Below the pieces are notes generated by a model. The model was not told where the DNA came from and did not search any database. It saw only the letters and a list, made by a program, of their open reading frames with translations. Shown piece by piece: positions 9,415 to 50,851 of a DNA stretch of 64,000 nt (the first letter of the stretch is position 1; each line of letters opens with the position of its first letter). Where the stretch lies: contig NZ_JAULBL010000002.1 in the NCBI RefSeq assembly GCF_030512175.1, forward strand, positions 1,734,149 to 1,798,148, written 5' to 3'. The DNA is from Paeniglutamicibacter sulfureus (lineage in GTDB: Bacteria; Actinomycetota; Actinomycetes; Actinomycetales; Micrococcaceae). The position numbers and the translations under genes are program-made.

Positions 9415-10758
9415 ATGAGCATGAAGATATCGGTGATTGGCACAGGATACCTGGGCGCGACACACGCGGCCTGCATGGCCGAGCTTGGCTTTGAGGTGAT
9501 CGGCGTGGATGTCGATCCGGCCAAGATCGAGGCGTTGTCCGAAGGCAAGCTGCCCTTCCACGAACCGGGCCTGGGAGAGCTGCTGCGCAAGCACGTGGCC
9601 TCCGGACGGCTGCGCTTCACCACCGACTACGAGGAAGTGGCCACTTGGGCCGATGTGCATTTCATCGGCGTCGGCACCCCGCAGCGCGCCGACGGCCACG
9701 GGGCGGACATGCGGTTCGTCGATGCCTCGGTGGCGGAACTTGCCACGCGCATTCGCGGCACCGCGCTGATCGTGGGCAAGTCCACGGTTCCGGTGGGCAC
9801 CGCACGCCGGCTGCGCGGGCTCATTGCCGCCAACGCCCATCCGGATGCACAGATCTCCCTGGCCTGGAACCCCGAGTTCCTGCGCGAGGGCTTCGCCGTG
9901 GCAGACACCATGTCACCTGACCGGCTGGTGCTGGGAGTCGAGGACGCAACCTCCGAGGAGATCCTGCGCCGGGTCTATGCCCAGGCGCTGGAGGCAAACA
10001 CCCCGCTGATCGTCACCGACTTCGAGACCGCGGAACTGGTCAAGGTGGCCGCCAACGCGTTCCTGGCCACCAAGATTTCCTTCATCAATTCCTTTGCCGA
10101 GGTCACCGAGACCATCGGCGGGGACATCGCGGTGCTGGCCGATGCGCTGGGCCATGATGCAAGGATCGGGCGCAAGTTCCTCAACGCCGGAGTGGGCTTC
10201 GGCGGAGGTTGCCTGCCCAAGGACATCCGGGCATTGCAGGCCCGCACGAGCGAGCTGGGACTGACCCACACCATGGGTTTCCTGGCCGAGGTCGACGAGA
10301 TCAACCTGCGCCGGCGCGAACGCGTGGTCCGACTGGCCCAGACGATGCTCAACGACAAACTGGTGGGCGCCCGCATTGCGGTTCTTGGAGTCACCTTCAA
10401 GCCCGACTCCGATGACGTGCGCGATTCCCCGGCGTTGGATATCGCCGTTCGGCTGTTCAACGCAGGTGCTGACGTTTTGGTCTATGACCCCAAGGGGAAC
10501 AAGAACGCGGCCGATCGTTTCCCGCGGCTGCAGTACGCCAACGACCTGCCCGAGGCCGTGAAGGATGCCGACCTGGTGCTGCTGCTCACCGAGTGGGCCG
10601 AATTCAAGGCGCTTGTCCCGACGGACCTCGAGGAATTGGTCGCCACGAAGCGCATCATCGACGGACGCAATGTGCTGGACCGTGCGCCGTGGCGGGACGC
10701 CGGATGGGAAATCGTGCGGATGGGCCAGCACTACGCACCGCTGGATGGAGAACTTTAG
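9415..10758 (+). CDS. ugd: UDP-glucose 6-dehydrogenase
   Basis: Oxidises UDP-glucose to UDP-glucuronate with NAD+, a precursor for surface polysaccharide. The 447-residue protein has the N-terminal Rossmann motif GTGYLGATHA, the substrate loop VGTPQ, the conserved NPEFLREG, a Lys/Asn active-site helix (ELVKVAANAFLATKISF) and the catalytic cysteine in GFGGGCLPKD. The C-terminal domain has LGVTFKPDSDDVRDSPA. ATG 9415 follows AGAGG; ATG 9421 is an equally conserved alternative. It stands as a single gene bounded by hairpins. Confidence 0.96.
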   Translation: MSMKISVIGTGYLGATHAACMAELGFEVIGVDVDPAKIEALSEGKLPFHEPGLGELLRKHVASGRLRFTTDYEEVATWADVHFIGVGTPQRADGHGADMRFVDASVAELATRIRGTALIVGKSTVPVGTARRLRGLIAANAHPDAQISLAWNPEFLREGFAVADTMSPDRLVLGVEDATSEEILRRVYAQALEANTPLIVTDFETAELVKVAANAFLATKISFINSFAEVTETIGGDIAVLADALGHDARIGRKFLNAGVGFGGGCLPKDIRALQARTSELGLTHTMGFLAEVDEINLRRRERVVRLAQTMLNDKLVGARIAVLGVTFKPDSDDVRDSPALDIAVRLFNAGADVLVYDPKGNKNAADRFPRLQYANDLPEAVKDADLVLLLTEWAEFKALVPTDLEELVATKRIIDGRNVLDRAPWRDAGWEIVRMGQHYAPLDGEL

Positions 10759-10832
10759 GTCGCGCTGACGGCTTTCCGAAGTTCACACAAAGAAGCTGAG
10801 CTCAGCCGACCCTGAAGCGGACGGCGCCACAG

Positions 10833-10875
10833 GACGGTGGCCACATACTGGTTTGACCAGCATGTGGCCACCGTC
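10833..10875 (+). terminator. Strong hairpin downstream of ugd
   Basis: Perfect 14-bp arms GACGGTGGCCACAT (10833-10846) and ATGTGGCCACCGTC (10862-10875). The loop carries a further CTGGT/ACCAG pairing, and TTGTG follows. It probably terminates ugd and faces the minus-strand small gene at 10935. Confidence 0.75.
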
Positions 10876-10934
10876 TTGTGCGTAGTCATCGAAGCGTCCC
10901 TGCGGACTGCCCATGGCACCTGCCGGCCCCTGCG

Positions 10935-11075
10935 TTAGGTGAAGACGATGTATGCGCCAACGCCGCACACGATGGCGATAAGCAGACCAAGTCCAATGTT
11001 TTGCCAGACATAGGGCACGCGAGGTCCCTGCCGGTAAAAGCGGTCGTGATTGCGACTACGCGTTCTGCGTCCCAA
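10935..11075 (-). CDS. Tiny single-pass membrane protein, WQNIGL family (copy A)
   Basis: Not a recognised family. A 46-residue peptide starting at TTG 11075 with GGGGAGAG 4 bases upstream. A basic N-terminus (GRRTRSRNHDRFYRQGPR) is followed by VPYVWQNIGLGLLIAIV and about 20 hydrophobic residues ending AYIVFT. The core FYxQGPRxPxxWQNIGLG is shared with copies C and D, and WQNIGLGLL with copy B, although their DNA has diverged. That implies selection on the protein. The basic head suggests an N-in orientation. Translation from TTG is inferred from the Shine-Dalgarno and the homology. Confidence 0.6.
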   Translation of the reverse strand: MGRRTRSRNHDRFYRQGPRVPYVWQNIGLGLLIAIVCGVGAYIVFT

Positions 11076-11319
11076 GATTCTCTCCCCAAGTTTCGTGCGC
11101 CCCCCCAGGACGCGATTAAGGTCGATCCTAGCAGGCAGAAGCGATTCGACCATTAATGTGACCAATCAGGAACTGCCCGTTCCCAGCCGAACCGCCTTGG
11201 GTCTACAGACCGTCAAAGCGATCGATTCTGGACAGTACCGGATAGGGGTCCTGGCCCTCCAATTGCGTTCGAATATCGGACCGGGCTTGGAACCCAAACG
11301 GCTAGGCGGAGGCGGGTCT

Positions 11320-11442
11320 CTAAGTGAGTACTGAGTATCCGACTATGCCCAGGACAACCAAGGTGAGCAGCCCCAATCCGATGTTTTGCCAGATCACCAG
11401 AACACGTGACTTCTTGCGGTAGTAGATTCGATTCCAAGACAA
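11320..11442 (-). CDS. Tiny single-pass membrane protein, WQNIGL family (copy B)
   Basis: A 40-residue peptide from TTG 11442, with GGGGG 7-8 bases upstream: MSWNRIYYRKKSRVLVIWQN, then IGLGLLTLVVLGIVGYSVLT. It keeps the YY and WQNIGLG core of the family but has KKSRVLV where the others have QGPRIP. Same strand as copy A, 244 bases upstream of it in gene direction. Function unknown; one transmembrane helix is predicted by eye. Confidence 0.55.
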   Translation of the reverse strand: MSWNRIYYRKKSRVLVIWQNIGLGLLTLVVLGIVGYSVLT

Positions 11443-11843
11443 AACAGTCGCCCCCAAACTTAAGACTTCCCCCAATTGGAGCCTTGTTGCACCAGCCTAA
11501 ACCATGGCGCAGCGGAAAGGACCAAGATGACTATGGCTGATTGCGGGATGTTTCTCAGGCAGCTGGAGACTGGCCTTGGAAGCAGGGCGAAACGCTGCTG
11601 GGCGATTGGCACGGAACCCCGGCACCAAGTCCTAAGGGTTGTGGGAGAGCGACAAGAGTATGGCCCGGTAACCAAGACCACAACCAGGCCACGTCGTTCA
11701 ACTACCGCCGGGGCCGGCGAGCAACTCTTTGGGTGATCGCCAAAGGGGTTTGCCCGGACTATGTGCAAGAACGTACATGCTGATGGCGTCCGGGGAGCCG
11801 TTGTCACGACGCCGGTATCAAAACCTGTCCGGCTCGGCTCGTG

Positions 11844-13379
11844 TTAGAGCCCCAGGTCCCGGCCCGCACGTGGAAGTTCCTGCAAGACATCAACGGCGCT
11901 GACGGTGCCCTTGTGGGCCGCGAGGGCACCCGCGTGCGCATGGATCAGTGCTCCGGCAGCAGCAAGGTCCGTCAGGCGATGGCCAAGGGCCACGACGTCC
12001 TTGTTCGTGGGCGTGGCCGGGAGGTTGGCTGCGGCCAAGACCGTGCCCAGGATGCCGGTCAGCACGTCGCCGCTTCCGGCGGTTGCAAGGTCAGGCGTGG
12101 AAGCATGCACGATCAATGTGTAGCCGTCCGGAGCCGTACAGATAGTTGACGGTCCCTTGAGTAGGACGACACTGTCGTAGGCAACGGCGGCCCAGCGGGC
12201 CCAGCGGATCGGGTCGGCCGCGATGTCCCGGGAACTGACGCGTACGCCGGCTTTTGCCAATAGGGCGTGGAGTTCCCCGGCATGCGGGGTGAGGATACGC
12301 AACTGGTGGTGCTCGCCCGGTTCCAGCATGGAAAAGGCGCCGGCATCAATGACGCAGGGCGTGTTCGCCGCTAATATTTGCGCCAGGTGCTTGCGGGTGT
12401 CTTCGGTGTCGTCCAACCCCGGGCCGATGGCCCAGGCGCCAATGCGTGTTGCACCCTCGCGTTCGTTTCGGCGATTGCGTGCAAGCAATGCCGTGAGCTC
12501 GGGGGTAGCCAGGGGAACGGACTCCGGTACCTGGGTAGTCAAGGCGGTTGCCACGGCATCCGGGACAAGGGTGCGCAGAAGGCCCAACCCGCTGGCCACT
12601 GCGGCACGAGCCGTGAGCACCGCGGCACCCGGGTACTTCGCGGAGCCGGCCAACAGCCCCAGCACTCCGCGCTGGTACTTGTGGCGCCCGGCGGTGCTCC
12701 AGTCTCCGTCACGGCCCAGCAACAGCTCGAGATCGTCTCCCTGCACCACCCAGGCCTCGGGCTCCGGCAAGGCCGCGCCGAGTCCCAGATCCGTAACGCG
12801 AATGCTTCCCGAGACCAGATGGCCCGAGCCAACCACGAGCCCCGTCTTCAGCGCGCCGAAGCTCACCGTGCGGTCCGCCGGGATGACGCTATCGACCGTA
12901 GCCCCGGTGTCGGAATCGACGCCGCTGGGCAAGTCGCACGCCAGGACTGGAATGTCCCGGGGGATGGCTGGCAACTCAAGACCGGGACGTGCGCCGGTGC
13001 CGTAGCCGGCATCGATCAACAGGTCGCAATCCTCGAGCAGTTCGTCCAGGTCCGCTACGGCGGCTGTGCGCCCGCCCGCACGCGACAGGGCGGCCAATCC
13101 CTCCTGGTGGGGCTGGGAGCCCAAAAGCACCGCGGTGGCGTGAACCCCGCGCTTGGCCAGCGATGCCAAGGCAAAGAGTCCGTCTCCGCCATTGTTCCCC
13201 GGTCCTACCAGCGCCACGGCGCGTGATCCGTAAAGACGCCCGGTATCTTCCTTGAGCATCACCACGGCCTGGTGGGCCAACGCGTCGGCGGCACGGCGCA
13301 TCAAGGTCAGGTCGTTGGCATCGCGTAGCAGCTTAGCTTCGGCATCTCGAACGTGGGTACCTGCGTAGACGGGGATCAT
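11844..13379 (-). CDS. nnr: Bifunctional NAD(P)H-hydrate epimerase / ADP-dependent dehydratase
   Basis: Repairs hydrated NAD(P)H: the N-terminal YjeF_N domain (~1-215) epimerises NAD(P)HX and the C-terminal carbohydrate-kinase-like domain (~225-505) dehydrates the S form using ADP or ATP. Seen: VGPGNNGGDGLFALA and DAGYGTGA with DLPSGVDSDTG in the epimerase half; AGSAKYPGAAVLTARAA, LTPHAGELHALL, VVLLKGPSTI and the signature TAGSGDVLTGILG in the dehydratase half. The length (511) is typical of the fused protein. It is followed on the same strand by acpS upstream at 13.8 kb, a common actinobacterial neighbour. Confidence 0.95.
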   Translation of the reverse strand: MIPVYAGTHVRDAEAKLLRDANDLTLMRRAADALAHQAVVMLKEDTGRLYGSRAVALVGPGNNGGDGLFALASLAKRGVHATAVLLGSQPHQEGLAALSRAGGRTAAVADLDELLEDCDLLIDAGYGTGARPGLELPAIPRDIPVLACDLPSGVDSDTGATVDSVIPADRTVSFGALKTGLVVGSGHLVSGSIRVTDLGLGAALPEPEAWVVQGDDLELLLGRDGDWSTAGRHKYQRGVLGLLAGSAKYPGAAVLTARAAVASGLGLLRTLVPDAVATALTTQVPESVPLATPELTALLARNRRNEREGATRIGAWAIGPGLDDTEDTRKHLAQILAANTPCVIDAGAFSMLEPGEHHQLRILTPHAGELHALLAKAGVRVSSRDIAADPIRWARWAAVAYDSVVLLKGPSTICTAPDGYTLIVHASTPDLATAGSGDVLTGILGTVLAAANLPATPTNKDVVALGHRLTDLAAAGALIHAHAGALAAHKGTVSAVDVLQELPRAGRDLGL

Positions 13380-27388: not shown

Positions 27389-27763
27389 TTAGAGGGGCAG
27401 TGCCGAGCGGATGGGCCAGTCCTGGCCCTCGAGGATGACCTGCGCACAGCTGCCGGTGTCGGCGTTGAACACCAGGGGAGCAAAGAGGTTGACGCTCGCT
27501 TGGTGGTCGGAGGTATTCACAATTACCAGGACGCCTCGGGAGCCAGGCTCCGGGTCTCCGACCAGCGCCATTTGTTCGTTGGTGAAGACGGGCTTGTAGT
27601 CGGTCAGGTGCAGGGCCGCATCCAACACGAAGAGCCGAAGCCCGGCTGCTTGGGGAGAGGCCAACGCGTACAAGCCAAGTGCTCCCTCCACCGGTTCCAG
27701 GGACAACGTGGTGGCTTCGGGGAAGCCGGGCAGGGCCGCTGCAGGAACCAAAACGCGGCTCAT
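27389..27763 (-). CDS. fliW: Flagellar assembly factor FliW
   Basis: In other bacteria FliW binds flagellin and the translational repressor CsrA, coupling flagellin synthesis to export. The 124-residue protein has the usual length and motifs: LPGFPEATTLSLEPVEG, ALASPQAAGLRLFVLD, and the C-terminal SVNLFAPLVFNADTGSCAQV. Overlaps the flgL stop by 4 bases (ATGA), the last gene of flgN-flgK-flgL-fliW. No csrA is visible anywhere in the window. Confidence 0.92.
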   Translation of the reverse strand: MSRVLVPAAALPGFPEATTLSLEPVEGALGLYALASPQAAGLRLFVLDAALHLTDYKPVFTNEQMALVGDPEPGSRGVLVIVNTSDHQASVNLFAPLVFNADTGSCAQVILEGQDWPIRSALPL

Positions 27764-46055: not shown

Positions 46056-46889
46056 GTGGATCCAGCAACAATCATTGGCCTCCTGCTGGCCTTCGGCGCC
46101 ATGTTCACCATGCTTTTCATGGAGGGCGCCAACGTCTCGTCGATTCTGCTGCCGGCCCCCATGATCATCGTGTTCCTCGGAACCATCGCCGTGGGCATCG
46201 CCAGCGGCACCATCAGTGACACGATCATTGCCTTCAAGTCCCTCCCCTCGGCTTTCCGGGGCAAGATCGCCCCGGTGGGGGAGCTGATCACCCGCCTGGT
46301 CGAATTGGCGGACCTTGCACGCAAGGAGGGTCTGCTGGCGCTGGAGTCCGAGGCCAGGGAAACCAAGGACCCGTTCCTGGGCCGGGCCCTGCAGTCCATG
46401 GCCGACGGCATGGACGGGGACGAGCTGCGCGACCAGCTCGAGGATGAGATCTCCACCCGCGAGCGCACCGATGCGATTGCGCACAAGTATTTTTCCACCC
46501 TGGGCGGTTATGCCCCCACCGTGGGCATCATCGGCACCGTGGTCTCGCTGACCCACGTGCTGGAAAACCTCTCCAAGCCCGACGAGCTCGGGCACATGAT
46601 TGCCGCTGCCTTCGTGGCCACGCTGTGGGGACTGGTCTCGGCCAACTTCATCTGGCTTCCCATCGGCGCGCGGCTGCGCCGGCTTTCGGAACTCGAAATC
46701 GACAGCATGACCCTGGCCATGGAGGGCGTGCTGGCGATCCAAGGCGGCAGCCAGTCGATCCTGCTGGAAGAGAAGCTGAGGGCCATGGTCCCGTCGTACG
46801 CATTGGGCACGAAGAACGACAAGAAGAATGGCAAGAAGTCCAACTTCGGGGCCGCATCCGTGCTCGATGACTTCAAGGAAGCCGCGTGA
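46056..46889 (+). CDS. motA: Flagellar motor stator protein MotA
   Basis: A stator channel subunit. 277 residues from GTG 46056, with four membrane segments: ATIIGLLLAFGAMFTMLF, SSILLPAPMIIVFLGTIAVG, then the large cytoplasmic loop (LLALESEARETKDPFLGRAL, DAIAHKYFSTLGGYAPTVGI) and IGTVVSLTHVLENL / IAAAFVATLWGLVSANFIWL. Overlaps motB by 4 bases. Confidence 0.95.
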   Translation: MDPATIIGLLLAFGAMFTMLFMEGANVSSILLPAPMIIVFLGTIAVGIASGTISDTIIAFKSLPSAFRGKIAPVGELITRLVELADLARKEGLLALESEARETKDPFLGRALQSMADGMDGDELRDQLEDEISTRERTDAIAHKYFSTLGGYAPTVGIIGTVVSLTHVLENLSKPDELGHMIAAAFVATLWGLVSANFIWLPIGARLRRLSELEIDSMTLAMEGVLAIQGGSQSILLEEKLRAMVPSYALGTKNDKKNGKKSNFGAASVLDDFKEAA

Positions 46890-47719
46890 GTGGCGGCCGC
46901 AGCAGTAGCCGGCGCGGGGGCCGGAAGGGCCGCAAGCCGGCAGAGTCCGGGCACGACGGTCCGGACGAGCGCTGGATGGCCTCCTACATGGACATGGTCA
47001 CGGTGCTGATGTGCCTGTTTATCGTTCTTTTTGCGATGTCCACTGTCGACCAGGACAAGTACACGAAACTGAAGAATTCCCTTGCCACCGGCTTCGGCAC
47101 CGAACAAAGCATCACCGCGGACACCGCTGAGGGCGTCGTGGTCCCGCCCGAGCTGGTGGGCACCGAGGGATTGCTGGCCAGCAGCCAGATTGACGGCCAG
47201 ACCAAGGAAGCCCTGCTGGCCCTGGCCCAGGACGAACAGTCCGAACTGATTGAGCTCAAGGAACGCATCCAGAAGCGGCTGAAGGATTCCGGGCACGCCG
47301 GCGCGGCCGATTTCTCCATCGACAACCGGGGCCTCACCGTGCGCTTGGTCAGCGCGGAGACCTTCTTTGTGCCCAACAGTGCCGAGCTCACCGACAATGC
47401 CCGCGAGATCATCGACGCCATCGCCCCGGTGTTGGCCCCCACCAAGCGCTACTTCGAGGTGGAGGGATTCGCGGACGAGCGCCGCCCGGTCAAGCCGTAC
47501 CCCACCAACTGGGAGCTCTCGGCTTCCCGAGCCACCGGAGTGCTGCGCTCGCTGGTCGAGGACGGTGGCGTGAAGGCCTCGCGGATTTCCTCGGTCGGCT
47601 ACGGGGACGCCCGTCCGGTCCCAGGCAACAAGGACCTGTCGCTGAACCGCCGTGTCGACATCGTGGTGCTGTCCAACCAGCCCGAGTCGGTCAGAAGCCT
47701 GCTGAAGCAGAACCCGTAG
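46886..47719 (+). CDS. motB: Flagellar motor stator protein MotB
   Basis: A proton-conducting stator subunit anchored to peptidoglycan. 277 residues: a basic N-terminus, a single TM with the ion-binding Asp36 in MASYMDMVTVLMCLFIVLFA, and an OmpA-like domain (~150-265) with VPNSAELTDNAREIIDAIAP, NWELSASRATGVLRSL and NRRVDIVVLSNQ. The Tyr-Met-Asp-Met context resembles H+-type MotB. Confidence 0.95.
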   Translation: MSGGRSSSRRGGRKGRKPAESGHDGPDERWMASYMDMVTVLMCLFIVLFAMSTVDQDKYTKLKNSLATGFGTEQSITADTAEGVVVPPELVGTEGLLASSQIDGQTKEALLALAQDEQSELIELKERIQKRLKDSGHAGAADFSIDNRGLTVRLVSAETFFVPNSAELTDNAREIIDAIAPVLAPTKRYFEVEGFADERRPVKPYPTNWELSASRATGVLRSLVEDGGVKASRISSVGYGDARPVPGNKDLSLNRRVDIVVLSNQPESVRSLLKQNP

Positions 47720-48017
47720 TCACCTAGCGTGCCTGCGACAATGCCGGGTCGGAAGCCTTCCAAAGCGGTACGACCTTGGAAGAACCCTGCGCCGGCACGT
47801 TTCTCTCTTCTACTTCCCCTCATGGTGTCGTAGGGTGATGCCAAGGGAGCGGAATCGCGTCGCTTGGGGAATTCGCGCGGGGCTGCTCTGAGATCACTTT
47901 TGGGGAAGTGGCTGGTGGCCAATGCTGAGACACCGTGGAAACAAAGTGCATTCAGGTCAAATGGAAGAGCGTGTCCTGGCGCCATCCAGAAGGCCTCGGC
48001 GAACGACTCTGGCAGCC

Positions 48018-48212
48018 ATGTTCATCGACGTCTTCCATCTGGACGATGAACCGCAGACCGTGCGAAGAACCGGGAATCAGGCCACCGGCATGGTGATGCT
48101 CGGCGGTGAATATGCCCGGACGCCAGGTCGCGCAGTGGTCTGCACCTGTATCCGGGCTGGCGACGTTCGCGTAATTTCCGTCCCAGATCCGGAGTGCAGG
48201 GGTCACGCCTAA
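48018..48212 (+). CDS. Doubtful small ORF
   Basis: A 64-codon frame (longer from 47922) with reasonable third-position GC and a sequence such as MFIDVFHLDDEPQTVRRTGN, but no Shine-Dalgarno and no family resemblance. It may be a remnant or spurious. Confidence 0.2.
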   Translation: MFIDVFHLDDEPQTVRRTGNQATGMVMLGGEYARTPGRAVVCTCIRAGDVRVISVPDPECRGHA

Positions 48213-48360
48213 CTGCCGGGATATTTCATGCTGGCCAGCCCTACAGGAGCGCATTATTGGATAACGACGACCAGTTGCGTTGCGATTGGAAGGCACTCTC
48301 CCCGCAGCCCGTGCAGATGGTGCTGACGATCAGTCCGTATTACACATTGATGGTCCGCAT

Positions 48361-48480
48361 TTACGAAGAGAAAACGTATGCGCCCAATCCGATTACGACG
48401 GCAATGAGTGCCGCAAGGCCGATGTTCTGCCATAACACCGGAATGCGTGGCCCCTGATCGTAATAACGACGATTTCCCAA
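48361..48480 (-). CDS. Tiny single-pass membrane protein, WQNIGL family (copy C)
   Basis: 39 residues from TTG 48480, with GGGAG 6 bases upstream: MGNRRYYDQGPRIPVLWQNI, then GLAALIAVVIGLGAYVFSS. RRYYxQGPRIPxLWQNIGL is shared with copy D; copy A differs slightly. The frame is open further upstream to 48546, but the homology begins at this start. A short positive head and one hydrophobic helix; function unknown. Confidence 0.65.
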   Translation of the reverse strand: MGNRRYYDQGPRIPVLWQNIGLAALIAVVIGLGAYVFSS

Positions 48481-48832
48481 AGTTAGCTCCCAAGCTGGTG
48501 ATTGAAACTCCAACAGTATGTGAGCTGCGGTACACCGGATTGCCATTCACGTGGCTTTCACCTCGCGGTTCACCCTGTGCAGGCCACGTAGCGACATATG
48601 GTCCATCAGAACCCTTGGCGTGAGCCGCGCCCAGGCAACAATCTGCCGGGATTGTTCACTCGCGGCGCGGTCCAGCGGGGTCGCATGTCCGCAAGACCGG
48701 CGACACATTGCCTGCTACCCGGGAGGACTTCGTCCTGCCCGATAGGAGGGTTTCACTGCACTATCCGTCGCGATTGTTCAGTTCTCGTGCCCGCCAAAAG
48801 CCGTTGTGAAAACTCTGCTCTTGCTCTTGCCG

Positions 48833-48952
48833 TCACCGAACGATCAGGTAGGCAGCAATCCCAATAACCGCTAAAACCAAAATACCCAAACCAATGTTCT
48901 GCCACAGAAGCGGAATGCGTGGACCTTGGCTGTAATAACGACGCTTGCTCAT
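48833..48952 (-). CDS. Tiny single-pass membrane protein, WQNIGL family (copy D)
   Basis: 39 residues from a true ATG at 48952 with an excellent GGAGG 6-7 bases upstream: MSKRRYYSQGPRIPLLWQNI, then GLGILVLAVIGIAAYLIVR. This copy fixes the start and shape of the family: basic head with RRYY, QGPRIP, WQNIGLG, one transmembrane helix and a short tail. It lies 352 bases upstream (in gene direction) of copy C. Not recognised as a known family. Confidence 0.7.
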   Translation of the reverse strand: MSKRRYYSQGPRIPLLWQNIGLGILVLAVIGIAAYLIVR

Positions 48953-49258
48953 GATCAGCCTCCAAGTCTTTGAAATGTGATTCCCGTACAGGACCCACAG
49001 TCCAAGCTACCTGCCGTTCCTGATAGCTCGCTCAGTTCGTCGCAACCCACGGCGGGCTTTGCCAAGCTCGCGAATCCGACTATCTGCCGTTTAGGTGAGG
49101 GTGTGCTGGTTGTTTGAGCGGAGAATCCGCCGCCAATCGGCGCCCGTCACTGTTCTGCGGGCACGCTCACTGCTCGTGACACGGGAAGCCGCGTGTACGC
49201 AATCCGTAAGCGGTGAGTCATATGGGCAGGGCCAATCGGTGCGGTCTTCCGCACGCTG

Positions 49259-49483
49259 TTAGGCCGTGATGACCTTGCCTGCGTTCGTGTTGACAGCCTG
49301 CTCGATACGTCCCAAGGCCCGAATCATCTCGAGGTGGTGATCCTTGAGTTCATTGACGGCCTCCGCCAGATCGACCTCAGGAAGATTCTTGAGATCCGCC
49401 ACGCGTGAGTTCCAAGACTCCACGAGGGCGAACGCCTGCGGGGTCGTTTCTTGGACGATAAATCCCTCGTAAATGTTGGTCAT
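49259..49483 (-). CDS. Small helical protein of unknown function in the flagellar cluster
   Basis: Not recognised. 74 residues, soluble, mostly helical: MTNIYEGFIVQETTPQAFAL, VESWNSRVADLKNLPE, DLAEAVNELKDHHLEMIRAL. GAGGAGAGG lies 6-7 bases before ATG 49483. On its own strand TGAA-N15-GCCGAGAG (49569-49543) resembles the sigma-28 sites of the cluster, so co-regulation with flagella is possible. It is the only ordinary-sized gene in the 2.2-kb gap between motB and fliM. Confidence 0.7.
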   Translation of the reverse strand: MTNIYEGFIVQETTPQAFALVESWNSRVADLKNLPEVDLAEAVNELKDHHLEMIRALGRIEQAVNTNAGKVITA

Positions 49484-49927
49484 TATGGACCTCTCCTCTT
49501 CGATGCGCTGGAATCCGCTACGTGAACACTGTTGAGCTTAGACTCTCGGCCGACTACGGCTCCACTTCATCCCTGGCCAACAACCCTACGTCGCCCGAAA
49601 GGCAGCCATGCCCGAATCCAAGGCGGTGACGCGGTGTTCGATGATATCCCCCGCGGCCAGTAGACCGGATCCAGCGCACTCAACAGAGCTCCCGGGTCAG
49701 CTGTTTCAACACCCGACTTCATCGAAATGGTTGGGCCGAGAATCTGCAAACGTGGGCGTGACAGGGGCGGTGACAAACCAGCCTGAGTCGATCGGTTATC
49801 GGCGAGCAGCGATCAGTTCGCGCAAAATCCCTAGTCAATCTGCTACTGACGATTCCAAGGAATCGCGGGACGAATATTTGCCCCAACCGACTAACCAACC
49901 AGCCACTGTCTGCCGATAGTGGTGCCA
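49484..49927. other. 444-base spacer with divergent promoters
   Basis: No gene is seen. It holds the sigma-28-like site of the 74-aa gene (minus strand, 49543-49569) and the fliM promoter at 49892-49919. Frames at 49567-49979 on both strands have no ribosome-binding site. Confidence 0.5.
49892..49919 (+). promoter_or_regulatory. Sigma-28-like promoter of the fliM operon
   Basis: TAAC at 49892-49895, 16 bases, perfect GCCGATAG at 49912-49919. A start near 49926 would leave almost no leader before GTG 49928. Confidence 0.65.
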
Positions 49928-50851
49928 GTGACGATCTTGCCTGCGGGACGCCCCGATGCGGGTGGGCCCAATCCAACACCCCCTGACCCGGTCGCCGCCG
50001 TTGTCTATGACTTCCGCCGCCCCACCACCCTGGCCCGGGAACACGCGCGCGTGCTCGAACTTGCCTTCGAGACCTTTGCCCGTCAATGGGGCACCCAGCT
50101 GACGGCCAAGATCCGTGTCATGTCCCAGGTAACCCTCGAATCGGTCCAGATGCAGTCCTACGACGACTACGTCGCGGGCCTGCCGCCGGCCACCACCATG
50201 GTCCTTTGTGAGGCCGAGGGGCACGGCGCGCGCGCCGTCATCCAGTTCCCGGCCGCGGACGCGCTGAACTGGGTCTCGCACATGCTCGGCAGTCCCATCG
50301 CCACCGAGGTTCCCGAACGCAAGTACACGCGCATCGAGCAAACACTGGTGCGCGGCCTGATGGACGAGGCGCTCGAGGACCTGCACTACTCACTCGGTGC
50401 CCTGCTGCAGCAACAGCTCGCGGTGGTCGGAATCCACCACAATTCGCAGTTCGCGCAGGCCGCCACGAAGTCGGAGATCGTCATCGCCGCCTGGCTGCGG
50501 GTGCGCGTGGGGGAGCGCAGCACGCTGGCCTCGGTCGCGGTGCCGGCCGACATGCTGCTGCCGCAACTGGGGGAAACCAATCCGCGCACGCCGGTGGAGA
50601 ACGCCGCCGAGCTGCTCACCGAGGCCATCGCCGGGGTCCCGGTGGACGTGGCCCTGGCACTCGGTCCCAGTTTCGTCACCCCCGGCACCATCCTGAATCT
50701 TGCCGTGGGAGATGTGCTGCCCCTGCCGCACCCCGTCCACCGGCCCTTCGAGCTGTCTGTTGACGGGCGCCGCCTGGGCACCGCCGCAGCCGGCACCCGC
50801 AGCGGCCGGATCGCCGCAGTCGTCGTTTCTACCGAGGAGAGCCTCTCTTGA
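49928..50851 (+). CDS. fliM: Flagellar motor switch protein FliM
   Basis: The middle C-ring protein. 307 residues from GTG 49928. The FliM fold spans ~20-215 (VVYDFRRPTTLAREHARVLE, FARQWGTQLTAKIRV, ERKYTRIEQTLVRGLMDEAL, FVTPGTILNLAVGDVLPLPH), ending in a short SpoA-like domain. The frame also allows GTG 49919 or 49922, but these fall within or at the edge of the -10 hexamer. The N-terminus (TILPAGRPDAGGPNPTPPDP) lacks the usual LSQxEIDALL motif that binds CheY-P. Overlaps fliN by 4 bases. Confidence 0.9.
   Translation: MTILPAGRPDAGGPNPTPPDPVAAVVYDFRRPTTLAREHARVLELAFETFARQWGTQLTAKIRVMSQVTLESVQMQSYDDYVAGLPPATTMVLCEAEGHGARAVIQFPAADALNWVSHMLGSPIATEVPERKYTRIEQTLVRGLMDEALEDLHYSLGALLQQQLAVVGIHHNSQFAQAATKSEIVIAAWLRVRVGERSTLASVAVPADMLLPQLGETNPRTPVENAAELLTEAIAGVPVDVALALGPSFVTPGTILNLAVGDVLPLPHPVHRPFELSVDGRRLGTAAAGTRSGRIAAVVVSTEESLS

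Follow-up and report, generated by a model that had tools for sequence, protein, structure and literature searches.

In a 64,000-nt window of the Paeniglutamicibacter sulfureus genome (the window being the whole stretch of DNA analysed), four genes of about 40 codons are predicted, from comparison with related species, to encode short one-helix proteins that are kept there by selection and that match none of the catalogued families tested. The four copies, here called A to D (Table 1), have the core W-Q-N-I-G-L and a hydrophobic helix in common when aligned. Copies A and B lie in the spacer between UGDH (9415-10758, plus strand) and nnrD (11844-13379, minus strand), and C and D in that between motB (46886-47719, plus strand) and fliM (49919-50851, plus strand), the four gene names having been given from a reading of the translations. 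The original prediction had described two minus-strand frames of the first spacer, both of which were located, and a recurrence of the core at 48.4-48.95 kb, where C and D indeed carry WQNIGL; its size range of 39-46 aa agrees with lengths of 46, 40, 39 and 39 aa for A to D.

Table 1. Positions in the window of the gene copies, the sequences ahead of them and the spacers in which they lie
Feature	Position	Strand	Remarks
UGDH-nnrD spacer with A and B	10759..11843		Exceeds by about 0.7-1 kb the spacer of ten genomes that lack the gene here; lower G+C than flanks
Large palindrome between UGDH and A	10828..10880		Perhaps a shared terminator
Copy A	10935..11075	-	TTG start at 11075, stop ends at 10935; 46 aa
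Leader of A	11076..11121	-	Hairpin, then ACTTGGGGAGAG ribosome-binding region
Extended -10-like TGCTAGGAT ahead of A leader	11125..11133	-	Seen by eye; consensus scan found no promoter
Copy B	11320..11442	-	TTG start in line with the family, giving 40 aa; 45 or 51 aa from TTGs further up
motB-fliM insertion with C and D	47720..49918
Copy C	48361..48480	-	39 aa from TTG (probable start); 61 aa from upstream ATG
Direct repeat GGTGAA-N6-GGTGAA	48557..48574	-	77-94 bases ahead of C
Copy D	48833..48952	-	39 aa; ATG start, GGAGG ahead

TTG starts had been proposed for both A and B. The TTG of A, with GGGGAGAG four bases ahead, was found as described, and a TTG with GGGGG eight bases ahead was likewise found for B, but B has several TTG candidates, of which alignment with C and D favours the one at 11442. 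For C, the frame is longest from an ATG, but the start that fits the family is a TTG at 48480, preceded at six bases by GGGAG. A four-row profile of A to D searched against the organism's own genome (4.55 Mb) matched exactly these four copies at E<=10. Comparison of the DNA of the two loci at E<0.1 gave only two short matches, both within the coding cores (31 nt at 81% identity, E 0.002, and 57 nt at 70% identity, E 0.024), in keeping with the earlier claim that the protein is conserved while the surrounding DNA differs.

Selection, distribution and likeness to known families

Codon comparisons indicate that the frame is under purifying selection and that A to D are conserved as proteins. By Nei-Gojobori counts, made with our own script on comparisons that share sequences and are therefore not independent, pN was lower than pS at z>=2 in 11 of 14 comparisons. 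For instance, A and its counterpart in G059, a genome of the same species, differ by 16.5 synonymous changes on 35.8 sites and 13.5 non-synonymous changes on 102.2 (dN/dS 0.20); the ratio is 0.39 for A/G010A, 0.26 for G013/G009, 0.05 for D/G059D and 0.19 for both A/B and C/D, these last two being, with A/G001A, among the comparisons near saturation at synonymous sites. Synonymous changes thus exceed non-synonymous ones per site, rather than the two being equally frequent, as expected of the conserved protein originally predicted. Three comparisons gave z<2: G005a/G005b (1.22), A/G005a (1.56) and C/G059C (0.29). In the G059 counterpart of C the conserved W is replaced by R, and frames that look transposase-like by eye lie between the C and D copies of that genome (L109:3441-4867), so this copy may be decaying. 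Between the own genome and G059, identity is 98% for UGDH and 78% for the A peptides.

A profile of the A to D rows alone, searched in 13 other genomes of the genus Paeniglutamicibacter, matched an intact homologous frame in seven (G001, G005, G006, G008, G009, G010 and G013) at E<=1.2e-5, so that homologues with a conserved reading frame, on which the original prediction depended, do exist in related genomes. The best match was a near-identical copy in G008 (2.4e-23), and more distant ones include those of G010 (1.7e-17) and G001 (6.5e-16). After the profile was widened by adding these hits, whose genomes then match by construction, nine of 15 genus genomes, the own included, matched at E<=0.001, with four copies in the own genome, three in G059, two each in G008 and G010, and one each in G001, G005, G006, G009 and G013. 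The three copies of G059 were matched even though that genome is absent from the widened profile. G005 has, in tandem with its first frame, a diverged second one (E 0.015 in a scan of fetched stretches).

Beyond the genus, with at most the best 24 candidates per genome scored, such that short relatives may be missed, the widened profile matched at least 26 of 295 genomes sampled across the family at E<=0.01: the nine genus members, G035 of another genus, six genomes through GDSL hydrolases, and ten weak matches. The G035 copy is free-standing and scored 1.4e-6 before its inclusion in any profile. Across the order, with at most the best 18 candidates scored and the same proviso, at least five of 396 genomes matched at E<=0.001, namely the own genome, G035, which had meanwhile entered the profile, and three weak matches that fall inside frames of 255-396 aa. 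A further genome, G019, matched the window-only profile at 7.5e-6 but gave no match at 0.01 in the family or 0.001 in the order, and was left uncounted. Judged by these profile matches, the gene family appears to be close to genus-restricted among the genomes sampled.

Each of the 13 members tested contains a hydrophobic 19-mer, with means of 2.27-2.87, and carries a charge of +2 to +8 on its head; the part that begins with the W has a charge of 0 in 11 members and of +1 in the other two (D and G035). The family core is mostly WQN, around the conserved W. AlphaFold2, run on the four-row alignment, predicts a helix at residues 19-45, with pLDDT >90 in the core, and a low-confidence head with a short helix at 10-15. 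According to the positive-inside rule the basic end of a membrane protein stays cytoplasmic; given the basic head and the near-neutral rest, the N-terminus should therefore stay in the cytoplasm.

The earlier statement that no described family has this core held for every collection consulted. Pfam gave nothing above the gathering cut-off for the four window members (best E 0.44), NCBIfam no family above cut-off for 14 members, PADLOC (14 members) and PHROGs (A and D only) no match above cut-off, and the PDB no convincing relative, the best match, to MHC class I chains at E 0.026, being taken as chance. The string WQNIGL was absent from the literature searched, where small membrane proteins and type I toxins in Arthrobacter or Micrococcaceae gave nothing relevant. 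A defence protein was rejected on the PADLOC result, and a known RNA because Rfam had no family at gathering score in 16 loci. The helix bears a weak likeness to SecE (NCBIfam NF006906; best E 0.00098, three of 14 members at E<=0.1), far below the cut-off of 95 bits, copy A reaching only 12.5 bits, and two of 14 members weakly match the CoaP anchor signal of NCBIfam (E 0.0025); such helices therefore match easily.

Another likeness is to the N-terminal anchor of GDSL hydrolases, which the widened profile matches in G118 (9.0e-7) and G166 (8.4e-7) and, more weakly, in G203, G191, G153 and G096 of the same genus (5e-4 to 6e-3). Conversely, tblastn of the GDSL hydrolase hits the C-type copy of G010 at about 4e-5 in a small database of fetched loci. 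The anchor of the GDSL-like (SGNH) hydrolase of G118, RFYQKK-AWQNIGVAVLALLTLGAIVYAFV, aligns with the family core and helix, but some five residues that precede the W in the profile (PRVPV) are missing from it, and its helix leads into a domain of about 165 aa (PF13472), whereas the window protein ends with the helix. No hydrolase domain was found by Pfam in the four window proteins, nor by eye in one frame of the 700 bases after the stops of the copies. The link covers some 30 residues, largely of the helix, and may reflect convergence.

Insertion sites and upstream sequences

In ten genomes without the gene at this position (G002, G003, G004, G006, G007, G008, G009, G011, G012 and G013), the UGDH-nnrD spacer measures about 55-360 bp. 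In genomes that have it, the length is 0.99 kb (G005), 1.09 kb (own genome) and 2.3 kb (G059); no nnrD was found within 1.4 kb in G010, and the contig of G001 stops short of that gene. Between motB and fliM, six genomes that lack the gene at this site (G002, G003, G004, G006, G007 and G012) have a spacer of about 80-100 bp, as compared with 0.68 kb (G010), 2.2 kb (own genome) and 3.7 kb (G059) where it is present; fliM of G011 lay beyond reach, and four genomes had no motB match. Because the spacers are short without the gene and long with it, both loci are read as insertions, and the G+C of the A/B spacer (0.55-0.58 versus 0.62-0.70 in the flanks) agrees with this. G008 has the same arrangement as the own genome at the two copies. 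No end repeats were established at the insertions. Prophage or plasmid cargo was rejected, as copy D used as query gave no phage match and two partial Streptomyces plasmid hits at E 4-5, and alignment A1 gave none in IMG/VR.

Other frames accompany the copies. A 74-aa frame of the motB-fliM insertion (49259-49483, minus strand) is 98.6-100% identical in G059 and G008 and has no NCBIfam match. Beside C, a 96-aa frame (MLRHRGNK...) in 47808-48212 (plus strand) has a leader hairpin, CACTT-TTGGGG-AAGTG, and this hairpin and a similar start also precede a frame in G010 (L036, near 10603) and the gene of a 459-aa, apparently exported protein of G059 (L108:7195-8574), which lies divergent from the A copy of that genome and has no Pfam, PHROG or NCBIfam match.

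The A-type copies (A, G059A, G010A, G001A and two of G005) share a leader, in which a hairpin is moderately supported. By eye, the order is a -10 sequence, the hairpin, ACTTGGG(G)AG, and then TTG or ATG, with a TGxTA-type -10 sequence in five of the six; sigma-70 consensus scans gave no promoter on either strand and are hence silent on antisense RNA. The hairpin has seven pairs, three with changes on both sides, and 92.3% of its 39 cells are paired versus 26-60% in slid versions, the three unpaired cells falling one each in A, G059A and G010A. The structure was named by eye on a sequence-only alignment, and RNAalifold returned the same seven pairs. Among 500 shuffled controls, 10 reach the covariation score and 10 the percentage paired, while 150 reach the number of both-side pair changes and 126 the further pair types; folding z-scores fall below -2 for only two of seven leaders. 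In the predicted fold of A, and partly in that of G010A, the TTGGGG of the ribosome-binding region is paired. Searched in 15 genomes, a covariance model of the leader recovers its six source rows; the next-best match (E 0.0017, G010), ahead of what by eye is a CDP-alcohol phosphatidyltransferase gene, was taken as chance. G035 has a similar-looking hairpin, but its leader-model E is only 4.5. In L135 (G002), CTTGGGGAGAAAATC stands ahead of the gene for an apparently exported protein, with a leader-model E of 0.06 that may be chance.

The GGTGAA direct repeat ahead of C, with a period of 12, also occurs roughly 75-110 bases ahead of the G010 (C-type), G013 and G009 copies. GGTGAA-N6-GGTGAA has one exact match in the window and 22 matches with at most two mismatches, versus 4.8 expected, and is a possible regulator site. 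The repeat resembles the PHO-box heptamer GTTCACC of Streptomyces, the period of which is, however, 11.

In L077, L078, L079, L080 and L081 the spacer after UGDH contains an RNA-like element that has a terminator-like palindrome and two ACCCCAA stretches. Its pattern occurs in five of 15 genus genomes, once each, and not in the own genome, and Rfam gave no match in the loci scanned. As antitoxin of the TTGGGG leader it was rejected as a general partner, because three of the five genomes (G003, G004 and G007) lack the gene at 0.001. csrA, sought because the leaders have GGA-like motifs, was not found by motif in the 64-kb window, where a fliW-like gene, so named by eye, lies in the flagellar cluster (27389-27763, minus strand).

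Possible functions

We tentatively favour, at rather less than even confidence, the reading that A to D are accessory single-pass membrane partners of surface or export enzymes. Made as single-gene mRNAs and inserted with the basic head in the cytoplasm, they would serve enzymes of the cell surface or of export, concerned with polysaccharide or with secreted or anchored proteins, as small partners or docking helices embedded in the membrane. They would have arrived, at both window sites, with accessory DNA entering intergenic spacers, and the short hairpin leader of the A-type copies, together with the TTG starts, would hold expression at a low or conditional level. In its action the helix would probably resemble the N-terminal anchor seen on GDSL hydrolases of another genus, except that it would work in trans. 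Several neighbours have surface links: UGDH, a GDSL-VanZ protein beside the G006 copy, and a Wzz-type protein 0.7 kb from the G035 copy. In addition, a particular signal peptidase I gene, present in two of 15 genomes at E<=1e-30 (G006 and G013), lies 0.4 and 1.5 kb from the family gene. However, this pairing is confined to those two genomes, in one of which other frames lie between, and G009 has the gene without the peptidase; neighbours vary between loci, UGDH and nnrD are present with or without the gene, and no partner is conserved with all copies. Other copies adjoin tex, a signal peptidase gene or a Wzz-type gene. The neighbours at other sites fit no single theme, and the GDSL anchor and the surface-related neighbours are hints and not proof.

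The main rival is that the proteins resemble type I toxins, the leader hairpin or an unseen antisense RNA holding translation down and overproduction damaging the membrane; we consider this unlikely. Ldr and Ibs occur in tandem and in multiple intergenic copies, and the arrangement of A to D at variable intergenic loci is alike, while the pairing of TTGGGG in the predicted folds of A and, partly, G010A would suit such control. According to PMC8309996, type I toxins are under 60 aa, hydrophobic and of one helix, and the present proteins share with TisB, Ldr, Ibs and Fst both size and a single hydrophobic helix. The review also names cationic residues, generally in the C-terminal domain, as a common feature (PMC8309996), whereas the charge here sits at the N-terminus. 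Rfam scans gave no antisense RNA, a point on which the promoter scans are silent. PADLOC, a library not made for type I toxins, had no match, and the conserved W core probably exceeds what a pore-forming helix needs. That the genes are relics, N-terminal anchors left by decayed GDSL hydrolases or other anchored proteins, is more doubtful still. The similarity to the GDSL anchor, the 96-aa frame beside C (47922-48212), which looks like a shortened copy of the 459-aa gene, and the G035 frame, which stays open for >120 codons after the stop and is at first linker-like, could be so explained, but purifying selection on codons, the leader and start region common to the A-type copies, and the lack of any hydrolase remnant by eye in one frame of the 700 bases after the stops argue against decay.

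Two further readings have very little in their favour. The positions of the copies in the window, at motB-fliM and UGDH-glmM, would suit a local partner of flagellar or cell-wall precursor genes, a reading that is largely refuted and that we hold to be most improbable: both sites are insertions, other copies stand beside tex, signal peptidase or Wzz-type genes, and all four of the 15 genomes without a motB match at 1e-40 (G001, G005, G009 and G013, of which G005 is 88% complete) carry the gene. The flagellar site is therefore no functional evidence, and a flagellar component was rejected. Scarcely credible, too, is the reading of the copies as conserved RNA elements or chance frames and not proteins. 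Short frames and TTG starts would suit it, and the leader of A may form a conserved hairpin; chance frames and RNA only were rejected on the codon comparisons, with their pattern of purifying selection. Amino acids are, moreover, conserved across the two loci although the similarity of their DNA is confined to the cores, and Rfam had no match.

A broader and rather unlikely reading is that these are nearly genus-restricted, insertion-borne membrane micro-proteins that spread into intergenic spacers with their own promoter and hairpin leader and are interchangeable, over evolution, with the N-terminal anchors of surface hydrolases; they would be either free docking helices or an actinobacterial RNA-controlled membrane toxin. 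Genes that start with TTG and code for such short proteins are probably under-represented in annotations. The comparative evidence for coding is strong enough to justify a bench test, for which presence and absence at fixed chromosomal sites between related species provide natural controls. Should the helix prove to be a docking or anchor module that stands on its own, it would be an example of how an anchored enzyme can be split into a small membrane protein and its partner.
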